From an uncultured delta proteobacterium (lineage in GTDB: Bacteria; Desulfobacterota; WTBG01; CAIYCZ01; CAIRTM01): a stretch of 41,334 nucleotides of DNA. Where the stretch lies: positions 1 through 41,334 of the forward strand of contig CAIWCT010000331.1 in assembly GCA_903911225.1 (NCBI GenBank), read 5' to 3'. Shown in pieces: positions 17,187 through 41,334 of this stretch; position 1 is the stretch's first letter; each line of letters begins with the position of its first letter. The notes under the pieces are model-generated. The model was not told the origin of the DNA. It saw only the letters and a list, made by a program, of their open reading frames with translations, and did not search any database. The position numbers were made by a program, and so were the translations under genes.

Positions 17187-17450
17187 ATGTCTGAGGATCA
17201 ACTGAATGAAAAAACAGCAGGTACGTCTGAGCCGCCGCATGCTCAGGACCCTGCACAGCAGGATGCTGACCGTCGCACAATCAAAAGCTATGACGAGCTT
17301 ATGCATGGATTTGAAGAGATAAGGAAAATTGTGGATAATCAGGATAAATTTGATAAGCAAAAAAACACAGACACTAGCTGCAATGAAATTCTCAAAAACT
17401 TTGATAAAATTAAAAAAATTATTGACAATCAGGAGACCCCGGAGGACTAG
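17187..17450 (+). CDS. Small charged hypothetical protein with an internal duplicated motif
   Basis: Start preceded by GGAGGT; FEEIRKIVDNQD and FDKIKKIIDNQE repeat. Confidence 0.5.
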   Translation: MSEDQLNEKTAGTSEPPHAQDPAQQDADRRTIKSYDELMHGFEEIRKIVDNQDKFDKQKNTDTSCNEILKNFDKIKKIIDNQETPED

Positions 17451-18180: not shown

Positions 18181-19533
18181 ATGACCGCTGCATATTATAA
18201 CGACAGGAACTGGGACAAAAAGAAGACAGAGCGCAAACGCGTTGTTATAACCGGAATCGGCTCAGTGACGCCTATCGGCAATACCCTGGATGCCACCTGG
18301 TCAAATCTGATCAAAGGCACCTCGGGCATAGCTCCCATAACAATTTTTGACGCATCAACATTCCCGGTTAAAATCGGCGCAGAGGTCAAGAATTTTGATT
18401 TTAACGCTGTAGTGCCTGAAGACCTCAGGCCTTTTATTGGCAGAAGCACAAGCTTCTGCATTCAGGCAACACGTGAAGCGCTTCGCAATGCCGGCCTTGA
18501 TCTTGATCTTATGAACACGGCATCAGTTGGTATCGCTCTGGGGTCAAACGAAGAGGCCATGGGCCTGAATATGTTTGGCGACCTTTTTGACGCACGCACT
18601 ATAAAGGAGCATCTTGAGCGGCAGCAGGACGAAACCAGTCTGCACCGGCCTTTTGCTCATCTTGCGGCCTCAAAACAGTTGGGCCAGATCTGGCCCGTGC
18701 GCCGCAGCGCAGCTACAGCGGCCAACATTCTGTCGATTCTGTTCAATATTCAGGGCCCCGTGAGCACCTCCTCCGGCGCATGCGTATCTTCAGCACAGGC
18801 CATGGGCCGGGCTCTTCGCATGATTCAGGACGGAGACGCTAATGTTGTTATCACCGGCGGCTGCGACTCCATGATCGGCGAATTCTCCGTTGCCGGCTTT
18901 TACCGGCTGCGGGCTTTGTCCAAAAACAACGATAATCCCGAAAAAGCCTCCCGTCCCTTTGATCTCAAACGGGATGGCTTCGTGCTGGGAGAAGGATCGG
19001 CCGTGCTGATTCTTGAAGACCTTGAGCATGCGCGCAAGCGCGGCGCAACCATTCTGGCAGAGCTTGCAGGCTACGGGTCATCTTCAAATGCCGGCAGCAT
19101 CACCGCACCCCCTGAAGACGGCCGGGGAGCCGACCTGTGCCTCAAAGCGGCTCTTGCAGACGGGAACTGCTCGCCTGACGAAGTCGACTATATAAATGCC
19201 CATGGCACGTCGACCTATCTTAACGACAAGTCTGAGACAGCGGCCATCAAGAACGTGTTCGGAGAGCGGGCGTATAGCATCCCCGTTAGCTCGAACAAGT
19301 CGATGCTGGGGCATCTGGTGGCAAGCGCGGCAGCAATAGAGCTTGCCATGAGCGTACAGACGATCAACAGCCAGGTGATTCCGCCTACCATCAACTATGA
19401 AAACCCTGATCCTGTATGCGATCTTGACTATGTGCCCAATGAGTTTCGTCTGAAGAAAGTGAATACCATTCTTTCTAATTCATTTGCCTTCGGCGGCCAG
19501 AACGCATCGGTACTTGTTAAGAAATTCCAATGA
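18181..19533 (+). CDS. Beta-ketoacyl-ACP synthase (FabF-like, KS1), catalytic triad intact
   Basis: GPVSTSSGACVSSAQAMGRA (Cys201), NAHGTSTYLND, KSMLGHLVASAAA. Confidence 0.93.
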   Translation: MTAAYYNDRNWDKKKTERKRVVITGIGSVTPIGNTLDATWSNLIKGTSGIAPITIFDASTFPVKIGAEVKNFDFNAVVPEDLRPFIGRSTSFCIQATREALRNAGLDLDLMNTASVGIALGSNEEAMGLNMFGDLFDARTIKEHLERQQDETSLHRPFAHLAASKQLGQIWPVRRSAATAANILSILFNIQGPVSTSSGACVSSAQAMGRALRMIQDGDANVVITGGCDSMIGEFSVAGFYRLRALSKNNDNPEKASRPFDLKRDGFVLGEGSAVLILEDLEHARKRGATILAELAGYGSSSNAGSITAPPEDGRGADLCLKAALADGNCSPDEVDYINAHGTSTYLNDKSETAAIKNVFGERAYSIPVSSNKSMLGHLVASAAAIELAMSVQTINSQVIPPTINYENPDPVCDLDYVPNEFRLKKVNTILSNSFAFGGQNASVLVKKFQ

Positions 19534-20828
19534 ACCGCAGGGTTGTTGTTACCGGGCTCGGGGTTATTTCTTCCCTTGGAAATACCGTCAAGGAAAACTG
19601 GAAAAACCTTACTGAAGGCATAAGCGGCATTAGTCCCCTAGCGCTGCTCCCCAGCCCATCCTTCCCTGTAAAGACTGCCGGTGGAATTAAGCATTTTAAG
19701 CCTGCAGATCATGGAATACAGCCTAAATCCCTCAAAGTAATGAATACCACCATTCAGTATGCAATTGCCGCAAGCAATTTTGCTGTTGAAGATGCAAACA
19801 TTTCCCGGAACGAGTATGCGGATCGAGAGATCGGCTTATCCTTTGGCGTTAACGGTATCCAGTATGCAGCCGAAGAGGGCTTTCTTGCCTTGTATGAGGC
19901 TATTAATAAAGATTTAAGAAATTATATGTCCGGCGACAACATGACGGCGGGTGCTCCCATAAAAATAAATGACCCTGGCCTTGCCGTGCACCCTCTCTGG
20001 CCCTTGTCCGTGCTTGCAAACATGAGCCTCTGTCATATAGCAATACATCATAACTTTCAGGGGCCCAATCTGGCTTTCAGCTCTATTGATGCAGCAGGAA
20101 GCCAGGCAATCGGCGAGGCGTATAGGTCAATACTTCAGGGAATGGGCGATATCTATGTTGCCGGCGGTGGATATGCGCTGAACACCATTGATATTCTCTC
20201 TTTGTCATCAATGGATATGCTTTCAAAAAAGCAGGAAGCAGTACGACCTTTTGACCGCCTGCGTGATGGCTGTGTTCCGGGGGAAGGCGCTGCCGTGCTT
20301 ATCATTGAGGAAATGTCTCATGCTCTCAAGCGTGGCGCCCCCATTTATGCTGAAATAGCAGGATACGGCTCTTTTTTTAATGGGCTTTCTGATGCTTGTG
20401 ATAATGGCAACAGCTCTACCGACTGTCAGGCAATGCAAGAATGTATGAGCAGGGCGCTGAGCGATGCATCACTTGATCCTGCTTCTATAGATTACATCAA
20501 TGCAGACGGCAAGGGCACAGTTCAAAGCGATAGGCTGGAAGCTCAGGCGCTTCATCATATGTTTGGAAGAGAAGTTCCTGTCAGCACCAGTAAGCCGTTA
20601 ACCGGACATATGCTTGCTGCAAACGGCGCTTTTCAGGCTCTCTCAACGGTTTTATCAATAAAGCATGGCATCATTCCTCCTACGATAAACTGTTTGGATC
20701 AGGATCCTCAGTGCGACATTGCCGTGGTCAAAAATGCTTTGAAGAAACAAATAAAGTATGCTATCTCAAACACCTTCGGTTTTTCAGGGGAACATACATC
20801 CCTGGTATTTAAACACTATAACCAGTAA
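19530..20828 (+). CDS. KS-like protein (KS2) lacking nucleophilic Cys and first His; chain-length-factor-like
   Basis: FabF fold motifs throughout, but GPNLAFSSIDAAGSQAIG (Asp187 at Cys position) and NADGKGT (Asp326 at His position); KPLTGHMLAANG retained; start overlaps KS1 stop (ATGA). Confidence 0.88.
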   Translation: MNRRVVVTGLGVISSLGNTVKENWKNLTEGISGISPLALLPSPSFPVKTAGGIKHFKPADHGIQPKSLKVMNTTIQYAIAASNFAVEDANISRNEYADREIGLSFGVNGIQYAAEEGFLALYEAINKDLRNYMSGDNMTAGAPIKINDPGLAVHPLWPLSVLANMSLCHIAIHHNFQGPNLAFSSIDAAGSQAIGEAYRSILQGMGDIYVAGGGYALNTIDILSLSSMDMLSKKQEAVRPFDRLRDGCVPGEGAAVLIIEEMSHALKRGAPIYAEIAGYGSFFNGLSDACDNGNSSTDCQAMQECMSRALSDASLDPASIDYINADGKGTVQSDRLEAQALHHMFGREVPVSTSKPLTGHMLAANGAFQALSTVLSIKHGIIPPTINCLDQDPQCDIAVVKNALKKQIKYAISNTFGFSGEHTSLVFKHYNQ

Positions 20829-20844
20829 TAAAAAAGTATAGGCT

Positions 20845-22140
20845 ATGGGAAAAAGAGCAGTTATTACAGGAATGGGTGTTGTCTCCCCCATTGGTATAGG
20901 CAGGGAGGAAAACTGGCAAAGTCTTATCCGGGGCACGTCAGGTATTGAGCGGTTTTCCCGGTTGAATCCTGAGCATCTGCCCGTTCATATCGGCGCGGAG
21001 GTTAAAAATTTCGACCCCAAGAAGTTTATCACGGAACGTAAAATCATAAGGCTTACCTTTAGAAATGTGCACCTTGCTCTTGCTGCAGCCAAGCTTGCTT
21101 TTGAAGATTCAGGACTTGAGGTCGGCAAAGTTTCTCCCGAGCGGTTTGGCGCAATTATCGGCTCTGGAGGAGGCGGGTATGATGACGGGCCCGGCTTTGA
21201 AGACCTGAATGATCCTATCCTCAAATCATGGAATGAGGAGACGCAGGACTTTGATTCCGCCAAATTCGGCCAGGTAGGCGTGCCCTCTGCCTATCCGCTG
21301 TTTCTGCTCAAGGCCCTTCCTAATAATGCGTTTTATTATATCTCTCTTCTTTATAATATTCAGGGCGAAAATGATAATATCGTTACCTCGTTTACCGGCG
21401 GGTCTCAGGCCATCGGGGATGCTTTTCGGGCAATACGGCGGGGGCTGGCAGATGTAATTATCGCCGGAGGCTATGATTCCCTCATTACCCCGAACACGAT
21501 TTTCAGCCTCGACTCATTTAATCTGCTTTCAAAAAATGAGGATCCCGGGAAGGCCTGCCGGCCGTTTGATAAGCTCAGGGATGGTATGGTGGCAGGCGAA
21601 GGAGCGGGCTTTTTCATTGTGGAAGATCTTGAGCATGCTGAAAAGCGGGGGGCGCGAATATATGCAGAAATTGCCGGATACGGAAATGCATCAAGCGCTT
21701 ACCATCTTTATAAGCCGGAGCCTGAAGGCAGCGGCATTATTAATGCCACCGCCAGGGCATTGCAGGATGCACAGATGGGGGCTGAACACATCGACTGGGT
21801 ATGTTCGGACGGCATTGCAACAAAGGACGGCGACAGAGCGGAAGCCAATGCTTTGAAATCGATTTTTAGAGAAAAAATTTCTTCTCTACCGGTGAGTGCT
21901 ACAAAATCAATGACCGGCCATATGGGCTCAGGCTCAGGGGGCGCTGAATCCGTATATGCCGTAATGGCGATGAACAACAGTATTATCCCTCCAACCATAA
22001 ATTATGATAGCCCTGATGCTGACTGCCCTCTGGATATTGTTGCCCCTGGGCCGCGCGAGCAAAAAATTGATGTTGCTCTTACTATTAACCAGGGGCTTGG
22101 CGGACAGAGTACAGCTTTAATATTCAAAAAATTCGAGTAA
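20845..22140 (+). CDS. KS-like protein (KS3) lacking nucleophilic Cys and first His; chain-length-factor-like
   Basis: NIVTSFTGGSQAIGDA (Phe183 at Cys position), CSDGIATKDGD (Asp322 at His position), KSMTGHMGSGSGG retained. Confidence 0.88.
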   Translation: MGKRAVITGMGVVSPIGIGREENWQSLIRGTSGIERFSRLNPEHLPVHIGAEVKNFDPKKFITERKIIRLTFRNVHLALAAAKLAFEDSGLEVGKVSPERFGAIIGSGGGGYDDGPGFEDLNDPILKSWNEETQDFDSAKFGQVGVPSAYPLFLLKALPNNAFYYISLLYNIQGENDNIVTSFTGGSQAIGDAFRAIRRGLADVIIAGGYDSLITPNTIFSLDSFNLLSKNEDPGKACRPFDKLRDGMVAGEGAGFFIVEDLEHAEKRGARIYAEIAGYGNASSAYHLYKPEPEGSGIINATARALQDAQMGAEHIDWVCSDGIATKDGDRAEANALKSIFREKISSLPVSATKSMTGHMGSGSGGAESVYAVMAMNNSIIPPTINYDSPDADCPLDIVAPGPREQKIDVALTINQGLGGQSTALIFKKFE

Positions 22141-22186
22141 TGGCTCCTGATTTGATTCATGACACGCACTATGGTTTTTAAATGCT

Positions 22187-23287
22187 ATGGCAGCAGATAC
22201 GATACATAAGTTTGGCTTTATTGTTCACTGCAGAAGCACAAAGGAGCTTCGGCTTGCCCTTGGTTTCTACAAGCAGAACCCGGCTGCTCTGCTGCCGGAA
22301 AAAGCCCTAAAGCAGTATTGCCTTAATAAGGGATTTATCAAGGACATATTTACCTTTGATAAAGTTATCTCAGATAAAGGGGTTGTCTGCCAGGGTAAGG
22401 CTTTTTGCATTTTTCTGACGCCGGACCAGTTTCTTGAGCACCAGACCTACTCTACAGAGCTCGTGGTAAAGGCCTCAAAGATGGCTGAAGCATGGGGCGC
22501 TGAAATGATCGGACTTGGAGCTATCTGTGCGGTGGTTGGCGCCCGGGGCGTGGAAGTGGCGGATAACTGCACATCGGCAGTAACGACGGGAAACTCCCTT
22601 ACCGTCTATGCCTCAGTTATTCAATTTGAAAAGATTATGCAGCGCCTTGCGGTTGATCCTCTTAAACATAAAATAGTTATCATCGGATTTCCCGGCAGTA
22701 TCGGCCTTGCTCTCACAAAGATTTTGTACCAGAAAGGCCACAAGCTTGTTCTGGTCAGCCGGCAGAAGACGGCCTTTTTAAAGAAATTTCTTGAAAGCCT
22801 CAGTGCCGGCAGCGGAGAGATTGAAGTTACCCAGGATGTTGAAAGCGCCATACAAAAGGGCCGGATCATATTAACGGCCACCTCATCAGGACAGATCATT
22901 GATCAGGATATGCTGCTGCCGGGCTCGGTTGTTTTTGATATTGCCCAGCCCAAGGATGTTATATACCGCCGGGACGCCAGAAAGGATGTTCTTATTGTTG
23001 ATGCGGGATTGATATCGCTTCCCCGCTCAACAAAAAAGCGCTATCGGTATTCAGGCCTTGGGCCAAACGACATTCCTTCCTGCCTTGGCGAAACCATGAC
23101 GCTTACTCTTGAAAAGCGATGGGAGCGATTTTCCATAGGCCGGGAGCTTGATCTTGATAAGGTCCAGGAGATCGGCAGGCTCAGCGAAGGGCACGGCTTT
23201 GTTTTTGATGATTTCCGCACTTTTCAGAAGCCCATTTCAACTGAGAATTTTGAAGCAACAAAAAAGGCTATTCATAAAGCAGTTTAA
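22187..23287 (+). CDS. Homologue of long-chain acyl-[acyl-carrier-protein] reductase (AAR, aldehyde-forming)
   Basis: FGFIVHCRSTKELRLALGFY, GLGAICAVVGARGVEVADN..AVTTGNSLTVYASV (cf. TTGNTHTAYV), Rossmann IIGFPGSIGLAL, conserved Cys in NDIPSCLGETMTLTLEKRWERFSIGRELDLDKVQEIGRLSEGHGF (cf. the Cys-containing FACFAEAMLLEFEG segment of Synechococcus AAR). Confidence 0.8.
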   Translation: MAADTIHKFGFIVHCRSTKELRLALGFYKQNPAALLPEKALKQYCLNKGFIKDIFTFDKVISDKGVVCQGKAFCIFLTPDQFLEHQTYSTELVVKASKMAEAWGAEMIGLGAICAVVGARGVEVADNCTSAVTTGNSLTVYASVIQFEKIMQRLAVDPLKHKIVIIGFPGSIGLALTKILYQKGHKLVLVSRQKTAFLKKFLESLSAGSGEIEVTQDVESAIQKGRIILTATSSGQIIDQDMLLPGSVVFDIAQPKDVIYRRDARKDVLIVDAGLISLPRSTKKRYRYSGLGPNDIPSCLGETMTLTLEKRWERFSIGRELDLDKVQEIGRLSEGHGFVFDDFRTFQKPISTENFEATKKAIHKAV

Positions 23288-23304
23288 ATACAAGTGAGCA
23301 TGCC

Positions 23305-24048
23305 ATGAAGCTGAAAAATAAGATCGCCATAGTAACCGGCGCCTCACGGGGCATCGGCAGGTCAATAGCGCTGAACCTTGCTGCAGAAGGGGCAACAGTT
23401 GTGTGTAATTATGCTGCAAGCAGGCAAAAGGCTGAAGCCGTTGTGTTGGAGATTCAGGAAAAGGGCGGCACAGCCCTTGCCTGTCAGGGCGATGTGAAAA
23501 AATTTTCAGACATGGAAAAAATGGCTCAGGACATTATTGAAAAGTTCGACCGCATCGATATTCTGGTCAATAATGCCGGGGTCAACAGGGACCAGCTTAT
23601 CCTTCAGATGACAGAGGATGAGTGGAAGGATGTTCTGGAAACAAATCTTTACGGGACCTTTCACTGTACAAAAGCGGTTGCCCAGCAGATGATGTTTCAG
23701 AAAAGCGGCAGAATTATTAATATTTCATCGATTGCCGGCGAACGGGGCGGCAGGGGACAGTCTAACTATGCTGCATCAAAGGGAGCAGTGAATGCCTTCA
23801 CCCGCGCAGCAGCCGTTGAGCTGGCCCTAAAAAAAATTACGGTAAATGCTATCGCTCCGGGTGTTATTGAAACAGAAATGAGCCAGGAGGTTATGCGGCG
23901 GGCAAAAGAGCTTGTCATGGAGCACATTCCCCTTAAACGGCTGGGCACTGCCGATGAGGTGGCAAAGCTTGTGGTCTTTCTTGCATCTGATGATGCCGCC
24001 TACATTACCGGCCAGGTATTCAACGTCGATGGCGGCTTTAGAGGTTAG
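23305..24048 (+). CDS. fabG: 3-oxoacyl-ACP reductase (FabG-like SDR)
   Basis: VTGASRGIGRSIAL, NNAGVNRDQLI, SNYAASKGAVNAFTR, C-terminal ITGQVFNVDGGF. Confidence 0.93.
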   Translation: MKLKNKIAIVTGASRGIGRSIALNLAAEGATVVCNYAASRQKAEAVVLEIQEKGGTALACQGDVKKFSDMEKMAQDIIEKFDRIDILVNNAGVNRDQLILQMTEDEWKDVLETNLYGTFHCTKAVAQQMMFQKSGRIINISSIAGERGGRGQSNYAASKGAVNAFTRAAAVELALKKITVNAIAPGVIETEMSQEVMRRAKELVMEHIPLKRLGTADEVAKLVVFLASDDAAYITGQVFNVDGGFRG

Positions 24049-24129
24049 AGGTTGATACGCCGCAGCTAAAGCGGTGTCGCAGTTTATAGATATACATAAA
24101 AGCAGTGAACCCCTGAAAGGAGCTTTGAG

Positions 24130-24528
24130 ATGGAAGAAAAGGAAATTTTTGAGAAGGTGAAAGAGGCAATCGTTGACGCTTTGGGCGTTGATGAGGAAGA
24201 GGTTACGGCCGACTCGGCTCTGTTTGACGATCTGGGGGCTGAGTCCCTTGACCTGCTTGACATTGTTTTTCGCCTTGAAAAGACCTTCGGCATCAAAATT
24301 CCCCGCGGCGCCGTGCAGTTGGGCATTCTAGCCGCTGAAGGCGTCAAGGAAGAAGATGTGCTGGTGGACGGCGCCGTCACCGAGCTGGGCGCTAAGCTGC
24401 TGCGCGAGTATATGTCAGAGGTGAAGCCCGAGAAGATTAAAGCAGGGTTCCGCCTTGACGACATCCCCTTGCTTTTTACTGTGCAGACTTTCGTGAAAAT
24501 GGTCAAGGTGCAGCTGGCCGCCAAGTAA
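24130..24528 (+). CDS. Acyl carrier protein, extended (132 aa)
   Basis: LFDDLGAESLDLLDIVFRLEKTFGIKIPRG with the phosphopantetheine Ser; ~50 extra residues C-terminal to the core; RBS GAAAGGAG. Confidence 0.88.
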   Translation: MEEKEIFEKVKEAIVDALGVDEEEVTADSALFDDLGAESLDLLDIVFRLEKTFGIKIPRGAVQLGILAAEGVKEEDVLVDGAVTELGAKLLREYMSEVKPEKIKAGFRLDDIPLLFTVQTFVKMVKVQLAAK

Positions 24529-24553
24529 GGGCGGCGGTACGGCCATCATAGCC

Positions 24554-24919
24554 ATGCGCGTAGGAACAGACATTACCGAGGTAGGGCGCATCCGTGAACT
24601 CATGGCACGGCATCCGGAGTTCAGGTCTGCGGTGTTTACCCCGCAGGAGATCGGCTACTGCGAGAGCAAGCGGCGCACCTTTGAACACTATGCCGCCCGC
24701 TTTGCTGCCAAAGAAAGCGTTATGAAGGCTATCGGAAAAGGGTGGCTGCAGGGCATACAGTGGACTGACATAGAAGTGAAAACGCTGTCTTCAGGGGAGC
24801 CGGCAATTGCAGCCCATGGAACACTTATACAAGCAATGGATGAAAAAAAAATTACATCTTTTTCTGTTTCCCTATCTCACTGTAAAGCATATGCGCTGGC
24901 AACCGTCGTTGCCATATAA
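24554..24919 (+). CDS. acpS: Holo-[acyl-carrier-protein] synthase (AcpS type)
   Basis: MRVGTDITEVGRIREL, FTPQEIGYCESKRR..HYAARFAAKESVMKAIGKG, FSVSLSHCKAYALATVV. Confidence 0.92.
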   Translation: MRVGTDITEVGRIRELMARHPEFRSAVFTPQEIGYCESKRRTFEHYAARFAAKESVMKAIGKGWLQGIQWTDIEVKTLSSGEPAIAAHGTLIQAMDEKKITSFSVSLSHCKAYALATVVAI

Positions 24920-25058
24920 TCAAAGCACGGCGCTTTTCCACTGAGGAATGCTGATTAAAGTACGGCTAAATCGGAATTCCATGATTAAGAGAGCATGCTT
25001 CTGCTTTGTCCGAAAGCAGTAATTTTTATATGCACCCCCAAAAAAGAATCAGAGTTTT

Positions 25059-25544
25059 ATGCGCTGTCTTCTCGTTGATAAAATTATTTCTTATGAAAAA
25101 GGGAAAAGGATCACGGGCATAAAAAATGTCACCATGAGTGAGAATTTTTTGCAGGATCATTTTCCGGGGTTTCCGGTTATGCCGGGCATGCTGCAGCTGG
25201 AGGCGATACTTCAGCTTGCATCATGGCTTATGTTCGTAACAACGGACTTTACCAGGAAGCTGAACCTTGTTTCAATAAAGTCCATTAAGTTCAAGGAGTT
25301 TATTGTCCCGGGGGATCAGATGTGCCTGGATCTTGACCTTGCCTCCTATGACGATAAGCAGGCCGTGTGCAATGCCAGTATTTCCGTGAAGGATAAGCTT
25401 AAAACCGAGATCAGGCAGATAAAGCTGTCATATGTGAATGTGGAAGATATTGAAGATCCCCTCACGGCAAAGGCGCATTTTAATTTTATTACCGGTAATA
25501 CCCCCCTCGGGTCCTATGGATATAGTAAAGGCGGGTTGCTGTAA
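25059..25544 (+). CDS. FabZ-like hotdog dehydratase, active-site His and Glu present
   Basis: [28 protein letters not shown]. Confidence 0.88.
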
Positions 25545-26854
25545 TGGATGGATTGGAAAAAAAAGAAGTTGTTATTACCGGGATAGGGGTTGTTTCCCCC
25601 ATAGGCATTGGGAAAAAACAGTTCAGTGATGGCCTGTATGCAGGAAAATCAGGGATAGATTTTATTACGTTGTGTGATGCATCCCATTATCCAACCCGGT
25701 TTGCCGGAGAGGTTAAAGGATTTGAGCCTGAGAGACTTCTGTTCGGGACGGAGCTGGTACAGCGCACCGGAGAGCGCAGAATCCTTCTTGCGGGCGCTGC
25801 CGCACGTCTGGCAGTAGATGATGCCTGCTTGTCGCGAGAAGAGCTTTCGCGTGAGAGGTCAGCGGTCATTATGGGGTCCGGAGTGCATCCTGCAATTCCT
25901 GATTTCGGGAAGGTTATGGCGGCAGGCATTTATAGTAAAATGTTTGATGACCCGAACCCCGACGCTTCTAAATTTACTCAGAAAGCGGGGCCGGATTCTG
26001 AAAACAGATTTTATCCTGTCTTTAACCGGGTTAATGGCGGAGCCCATGCCATTGCCCGGGAGTATGCAATATCGGGTCTCTGCTATACCATAGTTTCAGC
26101 CTGTGCTGCTGCAACGCAGGCAATCGGCTATGGCTATAAAATTATTCAGCGGGGCGAGGCCGATATTGTTTTAAGCGGCGGATATGATTCCATGATCTCT
26201 GAGTTTGGAGTTTATGCATTTTGCCTCCTTGGCCTTATGAGCACCGCTAATGACGATCCGGCAAAGGCAATGAAGCCGTTTGATAAAAAGCGCGATGGCT
26301 TTGCCCTTGGTGAAGGCTCCGGGGTTTTGGTGCTTGAAGAAAAGGAGCATGCTGTCAAAAGGGGTGCAAAAATTTATGCAACCGTTGCGGGATATGGGTC
26401 ATCGGTTGATGCTCATAAAGTAACAGACCCCCACCCTGAAGGAAAAGGCGCAGTCATTTCCATGGAAAATGCCTTGCGCGATGCAGGCATGCAGCCTGAA
26501 GCTATCGAGTATATCAATGCCCATGGTACTGCAACGCCCAAAAATGACCGTATAGAAACAGCAGCCATTAAAGAAGTTTTCGGAAAAAATGCTTACAGCA
26601 TTCCGGTTTCAAGCACAAAGTCAATGATAGGGCATCTTATGGCGGCAGGCGGCGCTCTTGAACTTATTGCCTCAGTTCTGGGTATGGAGCACGGCTTTAT
26701 TCCTCCGACGATTAATTATGAAAATCCTGACCCTGCCTGTGATCTTGATTATGTGCCAAATAAAGCCCGGGATGTCAAAATACGCACAGCTCTTTCCAAC
26801 TCTTTTGGGCTGGGGGGGCAGAATGCTTCAATTATTGTGCGCAAAGACAGGTGA
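25544..26854 (+). CDS. Beta-ketoacyl-ACP synthase (FabF-like, KS4), catalytic triad intact
   Basis: [38 protein letters not shown]; start overlaps the dehydratase stop (TAATG). Confidence 0.93.
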
Positions 26855-38911: not shown

Positions 38912-40996
38912 TCAATTATTTATTTCAGGCATCTCAAGCCTGCGGTCGATCACCTGCCGGATGGCCGCAGGATTACCTCTTCTTGCCGCCTCCACTATAA
39001 GGGCATCAGCTTCGTTATGCTTGCCCATGGCTGCCTTGACGGTTGCCAGATTCATATAGGCATCTGCATCGGTGCTGTCAAGTTCAACGGCCTTTGTAAG
39101 GGTGTTTTCCGCCTTCACAAGCTCTTTAAGCATAAAATAATCAACACCCAGATGTTTCCAGTTAAGCGCTTTCGCGGGTTCAATAGAAATCAGATGCTCA
39201 AGGCACATGGCGCCTAGAGAATACTCTTTATTAAAAAAAGCCTCCTCACCTGCTGCAGCCAGAACGGTCATGCAGCGAATGTCAGGATGTTTTTCAAAAG
39301 TTTCAAGATAGTCCTGCGTATCGTGTTTATAGGGGGCGCGCGTCTTTGCAATAAAATGGTCATACTCACCAAGGTTCATGCCTGCAATTGCCCGCAGCCG
39401 CTCGCGGCTAAAGAGATCGCCCCGTGTGATGGTGCGGACTTTTTCGTAAAATGCCATGATGTTTGCATCCTTGATCTCGTTGTCATCTGATATTATCGAC
39501 GACATGTACCCTTTGGGGATATTGCGCAGAAAGTGGCCGATGCGCCATTTTTGTGGGCATTTTTTTTCCAGCAGCTCTTCGTAAAATTGTTCATACAGCG
39601 GATCTTCGGTAACCATGGGCAGATGCGACAGCAGCGGGTCGCCCAGGGCATGGTAATCCAGAAAATACACGGCAGGGCCAAGAGAGAAACCTGCAAAGCC
39701 GACGGCCCCGTGTACAAACAGCGGAGTTTTTAATTGGCTGGCCCGCTTAGCAATCTCAATTATATTGGCCTTCGGTTTTTCCTGCAAGGCTACATTGTTG
39801 ATAAGGCCGGTAATGGAAAAATAATATTGCCTTTCACTTGCAATGCCGTTTTCATCAAGAGGGCTTTTCATATCCCTGCCGTAATCGCTGTCGGAAAGAA
39901 TAGTTGACGTGGGCACTGAAAATCCTACAATCGCAACGATGACTGCGACTGCCGCAAGGTGGCGGCCGGGCAGGAAAAGGTTTTCCGCGACAAGCATTGC
40001 CACTGCCAGTACAAGCGGTGCGGCAAAAAACCTCCCGCTCATAAAATCCCCGCCGATCCAGACAATGTAGCCCATATACAGCATAATGCCCGCGGCATGC
40101 CAAAAAAATTGCCGTGCCCTGCAAACGCCGACCATCACAAGGGCATACGCAATTGCCGCCAGCGTCAGCGGATCTCTGGCAATCGAGTTGCGGAAATAAT
40201 TGATCCCCTGCGCCAGATACTCTGCCCGTCTGATCCCCGTGTTCATCTTGGCGAATGCCGTGTTGGGCACAAGGTAGCCATAGTAAATCAGTGAAAAAAG
40301 TTCCCAGGTAAAAAACGGGATGAAGCCTGCAAGCATAATGCCTATGCCTTTCATCCGGCCAAACCGTATCAGGGCGTAGGCAAGCGTCGGAGCAAATAAT
40401 AGCCCCGTGTCCATCCTGTTTAAAAAACCGAGGCAGGCAAGAACCGAAAGCTTCAGAAGATGTTTTTCATCAAAACTGCCCTTCAGGGAACAGATAAAGA
40501 ACAGCACCAGAATAAGATAGGTGAGCGGGTTCTCCAGGCCCGAAGTGGAGTAATCGACAAAAGCCTTTGAAAGGACCAGCACGAAAACACCAAGGGCCGC
40601 AGAAATAACCCCGCCCCCGGCCTTTCGCGCCAGAACAAAAACGGCAACAAACGACAGGGCGATCGAAAGTATCATCGGTGTGAGATAAAACTCGCGGGTC
40701 ACGAAGCTGCACAGCGACAGCACGAGCATCCAGAGCGGATGGGTATAGCTCTGCACCCGCTCGGCTATGTTCCAGCGCAGGCCGAAGCCGTTGATAAAAT
40801 TATCGACCGTGCGGAAGGTAATATAGGCGTCGTCGCAGAGCCATGCCGTTCTAAAAAGAACCACGCCGTACAGCAATAGACAGCCGTACAGCAGCAGTTT
40901 TGGGATTTCGGGGTTTGCGAGCACACCGACAGCAGTCGCCCCCTTTGTTTGTTGGGGCGCAGACACCTTATGGGCTTTTATGGGTTTTTTTTTCAT
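38912..40996 (-). CDS. GT-C type membrane glycosyltransferase-like protein with C-terminal TPRs
   Basis: LCDDAYITFRTVDNFINGFGLRWNIAERVQSYTHPLWMLVLS (Asp-Asp near TM1), many TM segments, C-terminal NWKHLGVDYFMLKELVKAENTLTKAVELDSTDADAYMNLATVKAAMGK. Confidence 0.7.
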   Translation of the reverse strand: MKKKPIKAHKVSAPQQTKGATAVGVLANPEIPKLLLYGCLLLYGVVLFRTAWLCDDAYITFRTVDNFINGFGLRWNIAERVQSYTHPLWMLVLSLCSFVTREFYLTPMILSIALSFVAVFVLARKAGGGVISAALGVFVLVLSKAFVDYSTSGLENPLTYLILVLFFICSLKGSFDEKHLLKLSVLACLGFLNRMDTGLLFAPTLAYALIRFGRMKGIGIMLAGFIPFFTWELFSLIYYGYLVPNTAFAKMNTGIRRAEYLAQGINYFRNSIARDPLTLAAIAYALVMVGVCRARQFFWHAAGIMLYMGYIVWIGGDFMSGRFFAAPLVLAVAMLVAENLFLPGRHLAAVAVIVAIVGFSVPTSTILSDSDYGRDMKSPLDENGIASERQYYFSITGLINNVALQEKPKANIIEIAKRASQLKTPLFVHGAVGFAGFSLGPAVYFLDYHALGDPLLSHLPMVTEDPLYEQFYEELLEKKCPQKWRIGHFLRNIPKGYMSSIISDDNEIKDANIMAFYEKVRTITRGDLFSRERLRAIAGMNLGEYDHFIAKTRAPYKHDTQDYLETFEKHPDIRCMTVLAAAGEEAFFNKEYSLGAMCLEHLISIEPAKALNWKHLGVDYFMLKELVKAENTLTKAVELDSTDADAYMNLATVKAAMGKHNEADALIVEAARRGNPAAIRQVIDRRLEMPEINN

Positions 40997-41120: not shown

Positions 41121-41192
41121 TGGGAACGCTAAAGGTCACTGGCGTGGTGGAGCGCAGCGGAACCACGTCCAGTGCAGCGACATGAGTTATGC
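41121..41192 (-). other. Putative integron attC recombination site
   Basis: Minus strand GCATAAC-TCATG-TCGCTGCACTGGACGTGGT-TCCGCTGCGCTCC-ACCACGCCAGTGACCTTTAGC-GTTCCCA: AAC/GTT core boxes, imperfect palindrome with an extrahelical A, adjacent gene stop codon inside the R'' box. Confidence 0.65.
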
Positions 41193-41334
41193 CGCTCTAT
41201 GAATTTCTATTGCTTCGTACTCTGGAAACATAATTATTGCGGGATGTACATTAAATGCTTTAGCAAGCTGCACCGCCCTTTTTTTTCCAATTTCCAGTTT
41301 ATCGTTTTCAAGCATGCTGATATTTTTTGCATTG
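41187..41334 (-). CDS. XRE-type HTH regulator, C-terminal fragment (truncated by window edge)
   Basis: NAKNISMLENDKLEIGKKRAVQLAKAFNVHPAIIMFPEYEAIEIHRAA*: end of an HTH_3 domain. Confidence 0.75.
   Translation of the reverse strand, partial: NAKNISMLENDKLEIGKKRAVQLAKAFNVHPAIIMFPEYEAIEIHRAA

Follow-up and report, generated by a model that had tools for sequence, protein, structure and literature searches.

An attC site at a contig edge closes the last cassette of a probable chromosomal three-cassette CALIN

Introduction

What is the palindrome that follows the stop codon of an XRE-type regulator gene where a contig of this genome breaks off? The window analysed here is the entire contig C331 (41,334 nucleotides); at its right edge, the contig stops within a cassette. 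The assembly to which it belongs consists of 455 contigs, with a total of 4.86 Mb and a completeness of 85.5%. The first-pass annotation had proposed an integron attC site and a cassette-borne XRE regulator at this edge. Our results support, with a probability of about 0.9, the reading that the feature is the attC site closing the third and last cassette of a chromosomal CALIN (an integrase-less attC cluster), the remaining part of which is carried by contig C439 of the same genome.

Results

Anatomy of the attC site

All the bases pointed out by the first-pass annotation, the XRE frame ending in GCA TAA C, the imperfect palindrome with its extrahelical base and the terminal AGCGTT, are present at the positions and on the strand given there. 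The site is composed of the following elements.

41187..41333, minus strand: XRE (HTH_3) antitoxin gene, C-terminal 48 codons and stop (N44-A91 of about 91 residues), 5' truncated by the contig end
41186..41192, minus strand: R'' box GCATAAC, read from the sequence, exact complement (7/7) of the attC2 R' box GTTATGC at C439:17342-17348
41162..41174, minus strand: L'' arm CACTGG-A-CGTGGT, extrahelical A at 41168, from sequence and fold
41137..41148, minus strand: L' arm ACCACGCCAGTG, from sequence and fold
41121..41127, minus strand: R' box GTTCCCA, without pairing to R''; the similarity of the copies stops at or near its GTT

The R'' box holds the last Ala codon of the antitoxin (41192-41190) together with its stop codon TAA (41189-41187), and deviates from the RYYYAAC consensus at one position (A at the third position), while the GTT is present in R'. 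The L'' and L' arms form a stem of 12 bp with one extrahelical A. The minus strand past the palindrome and the extrahelical A reads AGCGTTCCCA, and the site ends with AGC followed by GTTCCCA, finishing at 41121. Cleavage between G and TT is predicted between 41127 and 41126; TTCCCA and everything below it is chromosome, not cassette. When folded as single-stranded DNA, the site gave −17.4 kcal/mol, as compared with −10.2 ± 2.1 for shuffled sequences (z = −3.5), and none of 200 shuffles folded as well.

A hairpin behind an XRE gene could also be an ordinary terminator or a REP/MITE-like palindrome, with GCATAAC as a by-product of the Ala-stop. The coding sequence indeed allows for this: of 72 homologous antitoxins (L023-L102), 71 have a C-terminal Ala and 58 an Ala-Ala end, including ones not followed by attC, and the exact GCATAAC is found at the stop in 17 of the 72, several without attC behind. 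Since GC(N)-TAA-C thus arises easily without attC, GCATAAC by itself is weak evidence; what argues for attC is the palindrome together with the terminal GTT, the repeats and the match at the cassette boundary. Against a terminator, the sequence 3' of the stem contains no T-run.

Covariance models

Model R1 was made of class 1 integron attC sites only, taken from plasmid records. It gave 10.3 bits (E = 5.7) for the window site, and was dropped as too narrow and replaced by R2, a home-made model of two class 1 sites plus five attC sites located behind homologous toxin-antitoxin genes of other genomes (only seven training sites, nothing from the own genome, 90% of cells paired). R2 recovers known class 1 sites. 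By unfiltered search of the 41-kb window with R2, the window site, hereafter attC3, was the top match with 17.2 bits (E = 0.053), followed by a runner-up of 13.5 bits (E = 0.49); over the last 5.3 kb of the window, the E-value of attC3 was 0.0068. The match spans model positions 7-54, and is limited to this range because R'' and R' are unpaired, which is the expectation for an outermost site. The modest E-value of 0.053 is in part explained in the same way, because the R' box is chromosomal and cannot pair. With the home-made R2, the covariance-model check suggested by the first-pass annotation came out in favour of attC, at a modest level.

By filtered search of the whole genome with R2, the window site was absent from the list. 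Elsewhere in the genome, R2 gave 23.9 bits for attC2 of C439, 22.2 for a site on C37 and 30.1 for C9:40495-40551. In contrast, attC1 of C439 was scored poorly (9.1 bits) despite its canonical-looking R boxes and arms. R2 matches at C386:137-220 and C217:12110-12168 were not accepted, as they look like coding sequence. An Rfam search of the window detected nothing at gathering thresholds.

Copies of the site and covariation of the stem

Near-copies of attC3 were found by DNA search of the own genome on C439 (95% over 55 bp) and C37 (91%). Of the matches in 98 genomes, the best from outside the own genome came from the same-family genome G007, with 97% identity over 59 bp; this copy adjoins a ParD-like/RelE-like gene pair and another attC-like site, and sits inside a cassette array. 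The copies on C439, C37, C54 and C163 and in G007 all end at GTT or a few bases from it. Related sites were detected in G037, G053 and G033; G037 is a complete genome that encodes a full IntI, and about 3 kb separate its site from a partial IntI match. In an alignment of eight family members, 96.5% of stem cells were paired, as compared with 22-49% for slid controls; four stem pairs were changed on both sides, and nine double-changed cells were counted against 2.2 in shuffles, indicating that pairing in the stem is preserved through changes of its sequence.

The spread of copies over several contigs would agree with a REP-like palindrome. The similarity of the copies, however, stops at or near the cleavage triplet GTT, a covariance model lacking own-genome sequences finds the site, and the 97% identical copy lies within the cassette array of a relative. 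The terminator or REP/MITE explanation is further disfavoured by the complementarity of R boxes across whole cassettes, including the boundary match with C439, and we regard it as extremely improbable.

Some other sites of the genome were also observed. On C54 (L004:1501-1540) and C163 (L005:1501-1540), half attC sites carry an L'-R' half 91-94% identical to the window attC, the L'' half being missing or different; these are possibly remnants of cassette loss. Near position 41120 of C9 (L103:2125-2230, G000:C9), an attC-like sequence GCTAAC...ACTGGCAATTCCGTTGCGCTCCATTGCCAGT is directly followed by an element that looks, by eye and from its start, like the IS110/IS1111 type, probably an attC-targeting insertion. 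An attC-like site at L020:10191-10573 (G000:C163:20190-20572) has a group II intron (RF02001, 50.3 bits) within about 110 bases; attC-associated group II introns are a known phenomenon.

The array on contigs C439 and C331

The last features of contig C439 (17,708 bp) are an attC site (17279-17348), the gene for a 90-aa RelE-like toxin and then MGVNKSNFK, the opening of the next gene. Read from C439 (plus strand) into the window (minus strand), the array is arranged as follows.

C439:14564, plus strand: array start, with the boundary between G and TTAGGC
C439, between array start and attC1: cassette 1, 221-aa CxxCxxCC-like protein
C439:15241-15315, plus strand: attC1, R boxes and arms found by our own scan
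C439, between attC1 and attC2: cassette 2, type II restriction-modification set
C439:17279-17348, plus strand: attC2
C439 into window, between attC2 and attC3: cassette 3, RelE/HigB-type toxin and XRE antitoxin
Window 41192-41121, minus strand: attC3, last of the array, from fold, covariance model, paralogues, same-family copy and stem covariation
Window 38912..40996, minus strand: first chromosomal gene past the array, outside the cassette, 694-aa membrane protein with weak, sub-threshold Pfam similarity to PMT_2 and TPR

The antitoxin is divided into M1-K9 at the C439 end and N44-A91 at the window end. Given a homologue length of 91-92 aa, the missing stretch is 101 nt and in frame. The R boxes also fit: R' of attC1 (GTTCGGC) is the complement of R'' of attC2 (GCCGAAC), as R' of attC2 is of the window R''. 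Another good antitoxin fragment of the cassette 3 family was not found in the genome. A sequence bridging C439 and C331 is lacking, and the window attC might thus belong to an unrelated cassette, with C331 joined to another contig. This is very unlikely, because the antitoxin halves, the frame, the gap length and the R boxes all fit and the genome has no other antitoxin fragment of the family; on the same grounds the C439-C331 join is very likely, and the other half of the window cassette is very probably the end of C439. The XRE gene, taken as cassette-borne by the first-pass annotation, is the C-terminal half of an antitoxin, the cassette of which very probably continues on C439.

The same annotation had ascribed the mismatch of GTTCCCA to the outer end of an array or CALIN, and both its lack of pairing to R'' and the stop of similarity at or near GTT bear this out. 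An empty site was searched for among relatives of the 694-aa membrane protein; the best match was 45% identical, and neither a same-genus orthologue nor the empty site was found. Further inside the window (18181-26854), three ketoacyl-synthase genes lie in a dense run of plus-strand genes, which may be a fatty-acid/polyketide cluster, for example of an aryl-polyene-like type. On C439 (L017:8673-12455, G000:C439), a 1260-aa frame adjoining an ABC ATPase gene reads, by eye, as an ABC permease with three similar substrate-binding-like stretches.

Integrase genes and CALIN status

The first-pass annotation expected intI and additional attC repeats beyond 41334, and named a lack of both, with a poor covariance score, as evidence against its claim. 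Further attC repeats do exist, on C439, while intI was not found in the assembly. IntI (TIGR02249) was not detected above the cut-off in the genome, and on C439 or C331 no match whatever was obtained. The two best-matching proteins of the genome were identified as XerD, at 381 bits (cut-off 329.6), and XerC, at 335.9 bits (cut-off 335.15). Of 39 relatives examined by the same TIGR02249 search, 12 have IntI above the cut-off, three of them (G004, G005 and G008) from the same family, which indicates that the search is able to see IntI. The absence of IntI rests on an 85.5%-complete assembly, in which the gene may be missing rather than absent.

A CALIN is defined by at least two attC sites per cluster, and the present array has two on C439 in addition to the window site. 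No integrase lies on its flanks, which extend for 14.5 kb to the left on the C439 side and 41 kb on the window side, and the layout of a complete integron, intI and attI beside the array, was not observed. As an attC cluster without integrase, the array is thus a CALIN and not a complete integron. The array could instead belong to a sedentary chromosomal integron that is complete, with intI and attI on unassembled sequence. The incompleteness and fragmentation of the assembly, the additional attC sites on C9 and C37, the half-sites on C54 and C163 and the IntI genes of the same-family genomes are in line with this, and breaks in assemblies and inflated CALIN counts in drafts are known effects of attC repeats (PMC9024848). 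Both flanks of the array are, however, present and devoid of IntI, so the integrase would sit elsewhere, and the array would be locally a CALIN even if an integron existed elsewhere in the genome. We consider the complete-integron explanation unlikely, and the CALIN assignment is preferred.

Cargo of the cassettes

The antitoxin fragment, NAKNISMLENDKLEIGKKRAVQLAKAFNVHPAIIMFPEYEAIEIHRAA followed by the stop, matches HTH_3 (E = 8e-4) and shares 88% identity with positions 44-91 of a homologue from Desulfobacterales; no other good copy was found in the genome. By structure search, the antitoxin matched only generic regulators, and it was not found in viral contigs. The toxin weakly matches RelE_StbE (E = 3e-5) and the Pfam families YoeB (E = 7e-4) and HigB (E = 1e-3), all below curated cut-offs; a solved structure of a toxin homologue was not found. 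Scanning of genomes with the toxin yielded 80 homologous loci, with antitoxins of 91-92 aa in the close ones. A complete partner gene stands beside the toxin gene in 72 of the 80, most of the others being cut by contig ends. R2 matches starting at the antitoxin stop were found in 8 of 73 homologous loci searched (L023, L024, L028, L033, L052, L083, L084 and L088), five of the eight being in the R2 training set. A promoter-like hexamer pair, with weak consensus match only, lies just inside cassette 3 (C439:17350-17379).

The 221-aa protein of cassette 1 is weakly similar to the CxxCxxCC family. In cassette 2, a match to controller proteins and a putative restriction enzyme of 213 aa (weak match) are accompanied by a type II methyltransferase on the opposite strand; the region L017:15397-17205 (G000:C439) probably represents a whole type II restriction-modification set, controller gene included, within one cassette.

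Discussion

By analogy with known integrons, the array would be active in recombination as follows. The attC site would fold into a single-stranded hairpin with one extrahelical base, and IntI, absent from the assembly, would cut between G and TT. The cassette would then be excised as a circle, in which GCATAAC and GTTATGC are fully paired; for the window site, this R''/R' complementarity depends on the C439-C331 join. The cassette 3 pair may likewise act as a toxin-antitoxin system, probably a selfish or array-stabilising addiction module as judged from what is known of integrons and toxin-antitoxin systems.

The site resembles the attC sites of class 1 integrons (aadA1, aac(6')-IIa, blaVIM-2) in the R''-L''-L'-R' layout, the cleavage between G and TT and the single extrahelical base past the first six L'' pairs. 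It differs in the lack of R'-R'' pairing, this being the outermost site, and the conservation is mainly structural. Toxin-antitoxin cassettes of sedentary chromosomal integrons are likewise composed of two genes, a promoter-like sequence and an attC at the antitoxin stop; in contrast to these, the closest homologues of the present pair are mostly in deltaproteobacterial MAGs, and the toxin stays below the curated HigB, YoeB and RelE cut-offs. With CALINs (PMC9024848) the array shares at least two attC sites, a cassette array and no IntI nearby, but it is split over two contigs of an 85%-complete draft and has three attC sites only.

The Ala end of the antitoxin is possibly a proteolysis signal, a ClpXP-type degron. 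One could imagine that this toxin-antitoxin family is pre-adapted to the integron, because the Ala codon, the stop and one base spell the R'' box GCATAAC; we regard this as quite unlikely. If true, one short sequence would serve as degron, stop codon and recombination box, and the pre-adaptation could explain the repeated appearance of the family as cassette cargo.

The array is a genuine mobile gene array, but of a known and ordinary kind. Integrons are known as stores of restriction-modification and toxin-antitoxin genes, and the cargo of this CALIN fits. The useful addition is the scaffold partner C439, with which the seeming dangling regulator at a contig edge is recognised as the terminus of a CALIN whose restriction-modification and toxin-antitoxin cargo is defence-like. 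The complementarity of R boxes between contig ends is usable for scaffolding of broken cassette arrays in draft genomes.
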